From assembly GCF_000219535.2 (NCBI RefSeq), contig NZ_CP007806.1, positions 4,464,501-4,528,500 on the forward strand: a stretch of 64,000 nucleotides of DNA, given 5' to 3'. The notes under the pieces were generated by a model. The model had not been told where the DNA came from and did not search any database. It was given only the letters and a program-made list of their open reading frames with translations. A program made the position numbers and the translations under genes. Shown in pieces: positions 21,290 to 64,000 of this stretch (its first letter is position 1; every line of letters begins with the position of its first letter). This DNA comes from Brevibacillus laterosporus LMG 15441. GTDB lineage: Bacteria; Bacillota; Bacilli; Brevibacillales; Brevibacillaceae.

Positions 21290-22387
21290 TTACTTATCAT
21301 TTCTCAGAATTTTTTCCTTGTCAGCAAGCCACATGGCATAGGCTAAGGGATTACGAACTGCCTTTTTATACAGCTTAGCTTTTCCCATTCCTAAAAAGAT
21401 ATCGCGGCCCGGTTTTGGATTTACCTCTATTAGCCAAATTTGCCCTGCCGTATCTATCCCGATATCCAAACCAAATTCTAACATTCGACCATACTTTTCC
21501 TCTAATTTCTGGACTGTGTAATAAGCTAATTCATGACATTCCTGTAAGATTTTTTTACCTTTATCTTCACCAAATCTGTTGTTCATGAAGCTGGTAAAGT
21601 CAGTGGCCTTACCACCGTTATGCAGATTAGAGGTAGCACTGTTCAACAGTCCAACCCTTACTCCTAAACCCGTAACACTCCACTGTCCCTGTTGATTTTT
21701 CTGAATTAATAAGCGCGTATCACTTGGCCTGTTGGGCAGTAATTCTAAATCTAGACCTTGTTGAACCATAAAATGACCGTTACGAATTCGTTCCTGATCC
21801 ACCCATAGATTGACCCGCTCGACCAAAGCATCTCTAGATGTTACCTGCCATGTTTTACGTTGCAAATTCCGATTCCTGCCAACTAGTAAAAAACCACCGT
21901 TTCCTTTAGAAATTTTAAGAACACTGCGGCCACCTGTACCGTTACCCGGTTTTACATAAACAATCGCAAAATTCTCTACATATTCCTGTAAGGCCTCTTT
22001 TGAATACATTTCGGTTTGCGGCATCCATTTTCTCATGGTTTTATTTGTCCATAGATATTTTGTTATATTCCATTTGTTAGAGAAAATGCTGTTTGCATAT
22101 AAAAAATGCTGTTTACGGCGAAAGGATAAGTATCCGGGTTGCCTAGTTCGGCAACGATCTATGACCGCGTCTGGCCATCTAAACCACTTACTTCTCCAGC
22201 CGCCATGTTTATCCGGTACATATCCCCTGACTCGTTGTTTTTTGACCAATACATCACGATGGGAAAATAGAAATACTGATGCGCCTAGCTTTTTCCCCTG
22301 ATGGATCAAATTCCGAAAGTATTTGGGTTCCTTAAACGTCGTTCCTTCTCTGCTTGTTAAAATTCCAATCAGTTTTTTATTAGCCAT
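21290..22387 (-). CDS. YheC/YheD-type spore coat-associated ATP-grasp protein
   Basis: 365 residues. The N-terminal half has WPDAVIDRCR and FSNKWNITKYLW; the ATP-grasp core shows VYVKPGNGTGGRSVLKI, and EFGLDIGID then WLIEVNPKPGRD supply the late metal- and ATP-binding residues. YheC/YheD proteins are found with the endospore coat in Bacillus. The reaction is unknown, but the fold predicts ATP-dependent carboxylate-amine ligation. The ATG at 22387 is 7 bases after AGGTGG, better placed than that at 22393. Single gene on its strand. Confidence 0.88.
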   Translation of the reverse strand: MANKKLIGILTSREGTTFKEPKYFRNLIHQGKKLGASVFLFSHRDVLVKKQRVRGYVPDKHGGWRSKWFRWPDAVIDRCRTRQPGYLSFRRKQHFLYANSIFSNKWNITKYLWTNKTMRKWMPQTEMYSKEALQEYVENFAIVYVKPGNGTGGRSVLKISKGNGGFLLVGRNRNLQRKTWQVTSRDALVERVNLWVDQERIRNGHFMVQQGLDLELLPNRPSDTRLLIQKNQQGQWSVTGLGVRVGLLNSATSNLHNGGKATDFTSFMNNRFGEDKGKKILQECHELAYYTVQKLEEKYGRMLEFGLDIGIDTAGQIWLIEVNPKPGRDIFLGMGKAKLYKKAVRNPLAYAMWLADKEKILRNDK

Positions 22388-61374: not shown

Positions 61375-61549
61375 CGCTAACAATCCTCTCTTTTTATGCT
61401 TGTCCTTCCCATACTTCTTTCGTCTAGTTGTATGGCACTGACCGATTGTAGCCATTGTATGCTCTTCAAAATTTTTAATCAATACAAGCGATATTTTCCC
61501 TCCTGTGGTGAGGAGATTAATCAATGGGTAAAATTACATGTTTATCAAC

Positions 61550-61592
61550 AAAAATAGCCCTCAAACGGTTTAAATTCCGTCAGAGGGCTTTC
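61550..61592 (-). terminator. Orphan terminator
   Basis: AGCCCTC (61556-61562) pairs with GAGGGCT (61583-61589), extended by AAACGG/CCGT; the T-run (CTATTTTTG) is on the minus strand. Confidence 0.65.
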
Positions 61593-61750
61593 GCATTATC
61601 TTTGCCTCGCTAAACCAAAATAAAAAGGGAGTTACTATGAAGTTTGGTTGAAAAATTTCATGAAAATAAGAAAATGGTTGCAGAGATGCTTGTTAAGAAA
61701 AAATGGAACTTAATATTTTTAAAAATATTACTCTTATACTTTTATTTTTA

Positions 61751-61779
61751 TTTACAATATTATCTAATTAAAGTAAGAT
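61751..61779 (+). promoter_or_regulatory. Probable promoter of the RRNPP-type regulator
   Basis: TTTACA (61751-61756), 17-base spacer, TAAGAT (61774-61779); 53 bases before the ATG. The surroundings are very AT-rich, so chance matches are likely. Confidence 0.4.
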
Positions 61780-61831
61780 GTAATGGAATATTTTACTTAT
61801 TTTTCCAATATTAAAAAGGGTGATAGGTTTA

Positions 61832-63181
61832 ATGCACGTCTTAGATTACAATTATGAAGGTGCGCAGATAGAATTACGTCAACGTTTACAAGAAGCACTT
61901 GATCGTAAAGGCTGGAAACAAAAAGACCTTGTTTTAGCAACGGAAATTGAATCAGTCACCATCAGTCAAATACTTAACAATAGACAAAAAATAACACTTT
62001 CTCAATTAGTGGCTATTACGAAAGCTTTAGACTTACTAGAAGATACTTTTTATGAGGAATTTTTAGGGGATTGCTTTAATGAATCGGGAAAAATGTCCCC
62101 TATTAAAACAGCAGAATTTTTCATAAGTTGTATCAAAGCTGAACGATATGATCTTACAAAAAAGATCATGGCATTAATCAATGAGGACACTGATAGAAAA
62201 AGACTTCTTGAAAATACTTTTAAGATGGCAGAATTCATATTTTCCTCCGATCAAAGAAACTACAGTTTGCCCTTGTACGATATTGTGATCAAGAAAAGTA
62301 CAACACGTAACGAACGAGTAGCCATTTGTTATTTTAAACGATTTGTAATAGCTAGAGATGTAGACCTTACTGTCTCTGGTTATAAATCGCTACACCAACT
62401 TTTAGAATACCTTCCTCTACTTCCAAAAGAATATAAACTAGAAGCGTATTATAAAATATTAACCTTTTATAATGCTGTAGAAAAATGGGGAGAACTATTA
62501 AAGTATGCCGCAGAATTAAAGGAATTAGCTATCACGTTAAACGATAGCAATTTCATAGCTGAAGCCTTACTATATGAATCCTTTAGTTATCGAGAAATGA
62601 AAGATTATGATAAGGCATTACTTATAACTAAAGAATATGCTAAGTATGAAGGATATCAGCAAATTTCGAAATTAAATGAATTATTATTTTCAATAGAAAT
62701 GGGCCATGTCGAATATATTGACAGCTTTGCTAGTTTAGCTACTGATGTTGAAATATTTATGTTATTGCCAGTTGCTATTGAAACATATTTACAGAAGAAA
62801 GATATTGAAAGTATTCAAAAACTGATTAGTACTTTTGAAATACAAATCCAAAAAATTGCTTGTCAAACAAGCATTCCTACAAAAAGACATAAGTTAAAAC
62901 TTTATCAAGCATTAGCCTCATATTATTTTATAATTGAGGATAGCAACAAAGGGTTTGAATACATCTTTGAGGCTCTGGAGCTAGCTATCATGTTTAAAAA
63001 TGTAGAGAGAGTCCGTAGCATTATTTTGAAGTATTATGAATATGATTATCTTGCGACATCTGAGCAAAAAGAAAAATTTGTCGAAGTTATGACAGAAAGA
63101 GATGGTGGTTTCCATGAAGCGAGGAATAATTTTCTTACTAGCGATTCTCTCCTTGTACGGCATTACAGAAACGAATTTTGA
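61832..63181 (+). CDS. HTH-TPR regulator of the RRNPP quorum-sensing type
   Basis: 449 residues. An N-terminal Cro/CI helix-turn-helix (about 10-70: LQEALDRKGWKQKDLVLATE, VTISQILNNRQKITLSQLVA) precedes an all-helical region of TPR-like repeats (about 110-440), for example AEALLYESFSYREMKDYDKA and YQALASYYFIIEDSNKGFEY. This is the NprR/AimR/Alo receptor layout, where an imported peptide binds the TPR part and changes DNA binding. A 40-codon secreted peptide gene overlaps its 3' end in the +1 frame. AAGGGTGA lies upstream of the ATG at 61832. AT-rich codon use differs from the core genes. Confidence 0.85.
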   Translation: MHVLDYNYEGAQIELRQRLQEALDRKGWKQKDLVLATEIESVTISQILNNRQKITLSQLVAITKALDLLEDTFYEEFLGDCFNESGKMSPIKTAEFFISCIKAERYDLTKKIMALINEDTDRKRLLENTFKMAEFIFSSDQRNYSLPLYDIVIKKSTTRNERVAICYFKRFVIARDVDLTVSGYKSLHQLLEYLPLLPKEYKLEAYYKILTFYNAVEKWGELLKYAAELKELAITLNDSNFIAEALLYESFSYREMKDYDKALLITKEYAKYEGYQQISKLNELLFSIEMGHVEYIDSFASLATDVEIFMLLPVAIETYLQKKDIESIQKLISTFEIQIQKIACQTSIPTKRHKLKLYQALASYYFIIEDSNKGFEYIFEALELAIMFKNVERVRSIILKYYEYDYLATSEQKEKFVEVMTERDGGFHEARNNFLTSDSLLVRHYRNEF

Positions 63182-63236
63182 GGCTAAAGAATTTGATACG
63201 GCAGTTTCTTCAAAAAGTGTAGGTGAAGGATGGTAG
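63114..63236 (+). CDS. Probable signalling propeptide paired with the HTH-TPR receptor
   Basis: 40 residues: a basic start MKRG, a hydrophobic stretch IIFLLAILSLYGI, and a polar C-terminus ending SSKSVGEGW. This is the Phr/NprX/AimP-type layout: export by a signal peptide, extracellular trimming, re-import of the last 5-8 residues. The frame overlaps the receptor gene by 68 bases in the +1 frame, as is usual for RRNPP pairs, and a strong terminator starts directly after its stop. A weak GGTGG lies 6 bases before the ATG. The mature peptide, perhaps SVGEGW, is inferred. Confidence 0.78.
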   Translation: MKRGIIFLLAILSLYGITETNFEAKEFDTAVSSKSVGEGW

Positions 63237-63263
63237 AAGAGAGGATAACCTCTCTTTTTTTTT
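63236..63263 (+). terminator. Terminator after the propeptide gene
   Basis: AGAGAGG (63238-63244) and CCTCTCT (63249-63255) form a tight hairpin with loop ATAA and a nine-T tail, overlapping the last base of the propeptide stop. Confidence 0.9.
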
Positions 63264-63766
63264 GGGAAAATTTGTTTATACTGATATATAATTAAGTAAA
63301 TAACTGGTAATCCATATATTTTTTAGAAAATTTCATTAGTTTTATCTTTTGTGGATACCAGAAGTAAGGAGGATAGCAAAGAAAGAATCTTCAAAGAAAG
63401 GAGTTGACTGATATTAGCATGGGGCGATTGCAGTGGTAGATGTCGAAAGAAAGATTTTAAACAGGTAATAAAATCGGGATGTTCCCAAATGCCCTACGAA
63501 AGCTTAGGAACACCCCAATAACCAGAGCATATTAATGATGCTCCATTCAAGTTTACCACGCCTTTACGTTTAAATGAAAAAAATATTTTTTTTCGAAAAA
63601 GTAGTTGTCTTTCATGTGAATAAGCTGTATGGAAAACCTTGTATAACAAAATAAAGCCGTGATTCAGCTATTCTTTGAAGACAGATAGAAGATATTGAAT
63701 GACTCTTAACCAAGATTTTGTTTATAAGCGAGGAGAAGGAATAACAAATAATTCGGAGGCTTAAAT
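63237..63766. other. 530-base gap before the YycO-like gene
   Basis: No gene seen. After the terminator come AT-rich sequence, ribosome-binding-like AGGAGG and AAGGAG at about 63367 and 63399 followed only by a tiny frame, a hairpin with arms GGGATGTTCC (63476-63485) and GGAACACCCC (63507-63516), and a GAGCAT/ATGATGCTC near-palindrome. It may hold decayed coding sequence. Confidence 0.4.
63475..63516. repeat. Inverted repeat in the gap before the YycO-like gene
   Basis: Ten-base arms with one G-T pair and a 21-base loop; no T-run. Confidence 0.4.
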
Positions 63767-64000
63767 ATGTTTAAAAAAGATTACTTATGTCGTTGATGTC
63801 AGTCTCACTAATATTTACTGAGGCTTTAGGTGTGTCAGCTTCTGAAATAGAAAGACAGAAAATCAATAAACCAGAGGATGTTCCAGTCGAAGCAACTTAT
63901 CCGAATTCAAGAGTTGAGATTAAGCCAGGGGATATTCTTATAACAAACAATACCATTTCAAAAGGACTTACTGGTCATGCTGCCATTGTTGTAGATACAG
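63767..64000 (+). pseudogene. YycO/YiiX-like secreted cysteine-amidase-type protein with frameshifted start; 3' end beyond window
   Basis: ATG at 63767 with a good CGGAGG starts MFKK, but the signal-peptide frame RLLMSLMSVSLIFTEALGVS begins one base out, at 63778. A run of six A residues (63773-63778) would need seven to join them. After the signal peptide the protein continues PGDILITNNTISKGLTGHAA, the N-terminal motif of the permuted papain-like YycO/YiiX group (conserved His in GHAAIVV). The frame runs off the window. If the shift is a sequence error the gene is intact; otherwise a shorter start at 63787 leaves a poor signal peptide. Confidence 0.65.

Follow-up and report, generated by a model that had tools for sequence, protein, structure and literature searches.

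What does a receptor gene with a 40-codon frame overlapping its 3' end sense, and what does it control? The question is raised by the window analyzed here, a 64,000-nt stretch of Brevibacillus laterosporus LMG 15441 (NZ_CP007806.1; all coordinates refer to the window, and features lie on its plus strand unless stated otherwise), in which the original prediction saw an RRNPP quorum-sensing pair within an AT-rich module. The parts claimed are all present. Specifically, a receptor ORF of 449 aa (61832-63181), whose homologues are 59-92% identical, is followed in the +1 frame, with a 68-nt overlap, by a propeptide ORF of 40 aa (63114-63236) with the tail SVGEGW, and the terminator expected at the propeptide stop was found at 63235-63258, with a T tail to about 63263. 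This is the sole terminator-like site on the plus strand of 61500-64000, a region that holds five such sites on its two strands versus a mean of 0.9 in shuffles. Ahead of the receptor, a sigma-A-like promoter (61751-61779; TTTACA, 17 nt, TAAGAT) is preceded by an AT-rich box, ACTTAATATTTTTAAAAATATTAC, at 61708-61731, a possible operator pointed to by conservation: ACTTAATATTT is kept in 9 of 9 aligned regions upstream of receptors, with a variant in L079. The chance expectation of such promoter matches is high, and the support for this one is its conservation, with a -10 of TAAGAT in the window versus TATGAT in most relatives. Base composition bears out the AT-rich module, as the cassette (61700-63760) has 31.3% G+C versus a mean of 41.4% in equal-size windows across 1-61500, 0 of 119 of which are as low. 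Past the window end (L009 8286-12381), the cassette is followed by two large ORFs that by eye resemble type I restriction-modification subunits.

The small frame has what is looked for in an RRNPP propeptide, that is, a position adjacent to the receptor, a length within 10-100 aa, and a basic start with a hydrophobic core, as judged by hydropathy; earlier in-frame starts are found at 63102 and 63105. Could it be incidental, with the receptor an orphan regulator and the overlapping ORF a by-product of receptor C-terminal coding? The weak Shine-Dalgarno ahead of 63114 in the window copy (GGGG-rich in 6 of 10 loci) is what one would expect on that account, as are the related receptors of genome G002 that have no propeptide. 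However, an overlapping propeptide with a GEGW end is present in all ten close relatives, the window copy included, and is thus beyond chance; GEGW lies past the receptor stop, and its four codons, compared pairwise, show 0 nonsynonymous versus 39 synonymous differences. With the joint exchange of propeptide and sensor in L079 and L067, documented below, a by-product frame becomes highly improbable. Measured back from the last base of the receptor stop codon, the propeptide start lies at 68 nt in eight loci; in L010 and L080, where the receptor ends later, the distance is 92 and 95 nt.

Comparing the tails of relatives, as had been proposed, gives five types among the ten loci: SVGEGW (window, L064, L079), SFGEGW (L074, L066), IYGEGW (L010, L080), GYGEGW (L065), and TYGEGW (L067, L011). 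The hexapeptide guessed as the mature signal (codons at 63216-63233) gains backing from four distant propeptides (phage Emery, L075; L109; L110; L111) in which the final hexapeptide is doubled, the first copy standing directly after an A-x-A-like, signal-peptidase-like site, as seen by eye. Because these relatives double their final hexapeptide, the signal is probably the six residues SVGEGW.

Three intact members of this GEGW clade are encoded in the host genome (G000; 5.15 Mb on three contigs), namely the window receptor and those at C1:766773 (63%) and C1:525958 (59%). Elsewhere, three members were found in genome G003, one in G004, one on the B. halotolerans plasmid CP139434.1 (L074), and two in IMG/VR contigs (L079, L080). 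A degraded fourth receptor copy near C1:1643826 of the host genome (L012) retains the upstream box and has no intact 3' end. A profile search across 39 genomes of the order gave matches in 19; a Bacillus methanolicus match was dropped, being only 64 residues long. Eight further loci were pattern matches, two of which (L084, L089) repeat L080 and L079, two (L083, L086) are real copies, and four (L082, L085, L087, L088) were dropped as chance matches. At the loci examined, the propeptides of more distant receptors end in GTGW, GGGW, GPGW, GERG, GDRG, and mostly HGxGG. The original prediction had staked the pair on homologues keeping a small frame at the receptor 3' end; the ten close relatives do so, whereas G002 has five full-length receptors, members of the larger clade to which the window receptor belongs, that have no propeptide. 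At three G002 loci (L069, L070, L073), a receptor that has a propeptide precedes another that lacks it, and in L069 the frame of the first receptor continues into a propeptide-like tail ending EDFGIGY. Two different RRNPP-like receptors also stand in series on plasmid C2 (L014 4894-7993) and in G004 (L176), the latter with a weak hairpin copy, of the kind described below, between them.

The receptor was described at the outset as an HTH followed by TPR-like repeats, and the two halves of that description fared differently. The HTH (residues 17-68) is matched by five Pfam models at E<=1, with HTH_26 alone passing its cut-off (E 9.9e-5, 23.0 bits versus 22); no TPR model matches the receptor in Pfam at E<=1. 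The TPR-like helical repeats that follow the HTH therefore rest on a structure model, computed from the window protein and four relatives (mean pLDDT 85.8), in which residues 424-449 fall below a pLDDT of 50, most of that stretch being overlapped by the propeptide frame. Two NCBIfam matches were sub-threshold, and HalA and HipB were rejected as identities for the receptor, their matches lying far under their cut-offs; PHROGs gave HTH-type matches nearly throughout (best E 2.4e-7). When the model was ranked with VIA-align, NprR-NprX (4gpk) came first (Z 19.2, rmsd 6.1, 285 aligned), and the next RRNPP proteins were apo NprR (18.4), Rap of phi3T (17.5), and AimR of SPbeta (16.8), with unrelated TPR proteins scoring similarly (4r7s 18.5, MalT 18.1). 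PlcR was not among the VIA-align matches listed, an absence that carries no weight. Plain Foldseek placed generic TPR proteins on top and Rap of phi3T at rank 33. The top match in the viral library was S5MC02 (425 aa, E 3.7e-15), which carries no name there; phage Emery gp60, the one phage protein returned by tblastn, is of equal length. At 449 aa and with an N-terminal HTH, the receptor lies within the 250-500 aa of RRNPP receptors, and its modelled C-terminal superhelix is TPR-like, though other TPR proteins score equally. The predicted fold thus fits an RRNPP receptor, short of proof.

Sensor and propeptide vary together. Across the ten loci, sensor identity (residues 220-449) is 0.894 within a tail type versus 0.530 between types, with 0 of 2000 label shuffles as high, while the HTH gives 0.780 versus 0.707 (107 of 2000) and residues 76-200 give 0.860 versus 0.799 (46 of 2000). 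Because loci and peptide types share descent, these shuffles overstate independence and are not strict probabilities. Two recombinants argue for joint exchange more directly. First, L079 is 92-100% identical to L066 over the HTH half (roughly nt -46 to 550 relative to the start codon), 84-99% identical to the window and L064 over about nt 650-1400 (others 44-71%), and again 94-96% identical to L066 around the downstream promoter, identities that mark it as a natural mosaic carrying the HTH and downstream promoter of L066 with a sensor and propeptide of the window type. Second, L067, from another B. laterosporus, occupies the same chromosomal site and has the same cargo gene as the window, with a different sensor and propeptide (TYGEGW). 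Its flanks match the window at 92.4% over 2181 nt upstream and at 91.5% over 2167 nt from the downstream block through the cargo gene; identity is 0.82-0.97 over 62065-62425 and 0.81-0.97 from 63346 on, versus 0.25-0.72 over about 62465-63260, and the HTH stretch is partly lowered (0.65 at 61945-62040). The contrast between flanks and core therefore gives one site and one cargo with two signal types. Read from these alignments, the variable sensor half (about residues 213-449; 62468-63178) is swapped between loci with the propeptide as one specificity module. This joint variation and exchange, with the ten small frames out of ten, supports the reading as an RRNPP quorum-sensing pair, and the two loci amount to natural experiments in signal specificity, one a chromosomal site with two signal alleles, the other an HTH/sensor mosaic.

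What the pair controls had been called open. That is no longer so, as directly behind it stand a block with a conserved promoter and a gene of secreted type. The block, or leader, of about 430 nt (63256-63690) follows all ten pairs; relative to the window copy it is 76.9-88.7% identical in seven loci, 75.9% in L079, and clearly alignable in L080. It contains a -10, a box just upstream, a hairpin, a Shine-Dalgarno, a small frame, and a second, imperfect hairpin. The operator-like box and the -10, TATATAAT at 63285, occupy 63264-63292 and occur in 10 of 10 loci; no consensus -35 accompanies this -10, which is absent from the sigma-70 sites with both hexamers. The box has two forms, for which 8 of 2000 shuffles were as good with the middle of the receptor, 99 with the HTH, and 560 with the sensor; this is suggestive only, with the grouping following the receptor middle more closely than the HTH, to which the link is weak, and not following the sensor.

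The first hairpin, CTGGTAATCCA ... TGTGGATACCAG (63304-63361), lacks real covariation support, and we do not claim the leader as a structured RNA: it folds only slightly better than shuffles (z -1.93 and -2.02, with 6 and 4 of 100 shuffles as good), and a compensatory change occurred in 1 of 82 predicted pairs. Rfam returned no match to the block up to E 1 in six loci. The small frame, of 61-64 codons, is a remnant in the window (63411-63604), with no usual start codon and an in-frame stop; it is open over most of its length in nine other copies, and it is broken in the window copy, L011, L067, L047, and L083. We do not claim it as a gene, since it shows no codon-level constraint (w 0.69 in frame versus 0.74 and 0.50 shifted). 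In the wider set of hairpin loci described below, genes that by eye are Spo0E-like often occupy the position that the small frame has in GEGW loci.

Behind the leader, the first larger gene has a signal-peptide-like start in 9 of 10 loci, the exception being the window copy. There, the start of a C92-family cargo gene (63767-64000; Peptidase_C92 E 1.5e-9) is frameshifted, since the Shine-Dalgarno-linked ATG at 63767 is out of frame with a reading frame open from 63787 and running beyond the window end; homologues are intact in L064 and L067. The closest NCBIfam model is LnsA (E 1.1e-18), far under its cut-off, and the L066 cargo has a weak C92 match in Pfam (E 6.1e-6, 26.8 bits versus a cut-off of 27). 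Cargo differs elsewhere: L079 carries an M23 peptidase (E 1.9e-21), L010, L080, and L074 (twice) a 170-aa protein paired with a membrane-type protein of 62-64 aa, and L065 and L011 proteins to which Pfam assigned no family. In L074 (8353-11183 of CP139434.1), the block and the gene pair for the 170-aa and small membrane-type proteins are present twice behind the pair, with a small frame between the two units that has a propeptide-like tail ending GEGC. Because the conserved promoter block and a secreted-type gene follow the pair, they can be named as its likely target, which points to genes possibly controlled in an insect-associated, antimicrobial-producing bacterium. The published control by AloR13 of the gene immediately following it (PMC7425212) argues in the same direction.

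The second, imperfect hairpin of the leader (63596-63690; covariance model E 1.9e-21) recurs well beyond this clade and has no match in Rfam. Its 5' arm contains the stop codon of the preceding small gene, and from its inverted arms we considered an attC-like recombination site. The covariance model, built from 14 sequences, finds 30 copies, some of which served in building it. Of the five genomes of the genus searched, three contain them (13 in the host, 9 in G003, 8 in G004), and G001 and G002 have none. An RRNPP-like HTH-TPR ORF lies within 4 kb upstream on the same strand of 22 of the 30, a count that has no random control, and the best reference for these receptors is the GEGW clade in 7 cases, the L047 type in 12, and AloR-like in 3. 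A secreted-type gene, by a home-made rule of a Shine-Dalgarno and a signal-peptide-like start within 750 nt, follows 24 of 30 hairpins, one of them scored on the small membrane-type protein and the window copy being among the six misses, versus 119 of 1352 random points (8.8%). Of the 13 hairpins in the host genome, 10 have a receptor and 12 a secreted-type gene. The hairpin is thereby a handle for listing the whole set from sequence.

These counts cut two ways. Since hairpins also stand behind other receptor families, no receptor was detected within 4 kb for 8 of the 30, and the window combines a damaged small frame and cargo start with an intact receptor and propeptide, the pair might be genuine and the downstream block and cargo independent, co-spreading neighbors rather than its target. 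We consider this unlikely, given that the block and a secreted-type gene are behind all 10 pairs and that in L079 the HTH and the downstream promoter share an origin despite the replaced sensor between them. A broader picture, which we offer tentatively and at somewhat less than even odds, is that each B. laterosporus genome contains roughly a dozen quorum-sensing cassettes that are interchangeable and form a network spread over chromosome, plasmids, and prophages. All would share one layout, in which a receptor and pheromone private to the cassette (drawn from three or more receptor families) are followed by a small gene, the shared hairpin, and a secreted protein that differs between cassettes and is sometimes accompanied by a small membrane partner. 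Shuffling of specificity modules and cargo would then yield a pheromone-gated, polymorphic secreted arsenal, and the hairpin, with its 3' arm ending close to the following ribosome site, could act with the stop in its 5' arm as a translational-coupling switch or as a recombination joint.

Several of the loci lie in prophages. The original statement that no phage genes are visible beside the pair was too strong, as 61600-61702 (minus strand), just ahead of the receptor, is a phage-derived remnant with 91.3% identity, over some 103 nt, to positions 22201-22304 of phages Abouo and Davies, where the matching stretch stands just 3' of the endolysin gene (endolysin end at 22165 in Abouo). In L064, the 92% relative, similarity to the window locus is confined to an interval that begins shortly ahead of the receptor and ends about 550 nt past the cargo gene. 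Phage endolysins lie near L079, L080, and L010, RecT near L079 and L080, a holin and an XRE repressor near L080, and an integrase near L011. Brevibacillus phages Abouo (L177 7405-8051) and Emery (L075 1754-2272) have genes annotated as AgrB-like, that of Abouo accompanied by a cyclic lactone autoinducer peptide, and so hold another type of peptide signalling.

In arbitrium systems the order aimR-aimP-aimX is receptor, propeptide, promoter, and short transcript, which the present gene order resembles. Together with the phage genes beside several loci and the remnant ahead of the window receptor, this resemblance could be taken to mean that the locus is a prophage lysis-lysogeny module, with the block in the role of aimX (an RNA or small frame regulated by the peptide) and the secreted-type gene as a passenger. 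Copies, however, also occur on a large plasmid, and some chromosomal sites that carry them have no recognizable complete phage; the block is tied to secreted-type genes and shows neither codon constraint nor covariation, and the second hairpin is also found behind other receptor families. An arbitrium-like module thus appears rather improbable.

We therefore favor, at a probability of roughly three in four, an RRNPP-type receptor with its own pheromone acting on the conserved promoter and secreted-type gene behind the pair. Anatomy, conservation, joint variation, module exchange, and the position before secreted-type genes are observed; from them we infer the steps of export, trimming, import, binding, and DNA target as follows. 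The propeptide would be exported and trimmed to about its last six residues, SVGEGW, which would be re-imported by an oligopeptide permease and bound in the TPR groove of the C-terminal sensor half of the receptor. The receptor HTH would act on the promoter at 63264-63292, thereby coupling cell density to the leader transcript and the secreted protein, here a C92-family hydrolase with a damaged start, and exchange of sensor half and propeptide between loci would yield the signal types. By analogy with AloR13, we lean slightly toward a free receptor that activates and a peptide that switches it off.

How does this compare with known systems? The layout had been likened to NprR-NprX, AimR-AimP, and AloR-AloP. 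Among the proteins compared, those related to the window receptor by sequence are AloR-like (20-25%) rather than NprR or AimR. In the profile searches that had been suggested against RRNPP families, HTH-type matches came up and no AimR or NprR match: neither NCBIfam nor PHROGs gave an AimR family match, PDB sequences gave no AimR chain at E<=1, and neither NprR nor PlcR is among 13 phmmer matches to PDB chain sequences at E<=1. The likeness to NprR-NprX and PlcR-PapR is a small peptide gene at the receptor 3' end, with NprR-NprX as top structural match; the signal is another, and no neutral protease gene stands beside the window pair. AimR-AimP-AimX shares an HTH-TPR receptor, an overlapping or adjacent propeptide, a promoter and short transcript behind, a phage setting in several loci, and a structural match (Z about 16.8), and differs from the present loci in their secreted-type cargo and other peptide tails.

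The Paenibacillaceae offer closer parallels. As described in the accessible part of PMC7425212, AloR receptors adjoin their propeptides, the signals are probably six residues long, and AloR13 activates the gene directly behind it, an activation that the peptide shuts off. Going by the same part of that paper, the present pair resembles AloR-AloP in its HTH receptor, a following or overlapping propeptide (32-50 aa), a glycine-rich six-residue signal, control of the next gene downstream, and many paralogues per genome. It differs in a GEGW tail versus HGxGG, and in a secreted-type gene, with no Spo0E-like gene in the clade. The window receptor is 20-25% identical to the AloR-like receptors compared (AloR13 not among them), below the threshold of at least 30% identity over 80% of the length given in the accessible text of PMC10075063. 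In a tree in which peptide type decided which proteins counted as AloR, the GEGW receptors form a single clade (100/100), separate from that of the AloR-like receptors (100/97). The portion of PMC9765709 available mentions AloR merely in passing.

An AloR pair and a "cluster 8" pair were predicted on a plasmid of B. laterosporus LMG 15441, according to the same accessible text of PMC10075063, which, like the present loci, has cluster 8 as predicted Paenibacillaceae receptor-propeptide pairs on chromosomes, plasmids, and phages. Because plasmid C2 of the host genome carries one AloR-like and one L047-type receptor, cluster 8 of RRNPP_detector is probably, as far as that text goes, the L047 type. 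The window receptor is 24% identical to the L047 receptor, and the probable cluster 8 representative on C2 gives no BLASTP match to it and about 21% in a forced global alignment. We found no description in the literature of GEGW pheromones or of the hairpin-plus-cargo format, loci of which may be listed in the supplementary tables of PMC7425212 and PMC10075063. Membership in AloR, AimR, or NprR was tested by sequence and rejected. The pair is thus RRNPP-like by anatomy and evolution and stands outside AloR, NprR, and AimR, adding to the RRNPP-like systems a clade that goes unnamed in the profile libraries used.
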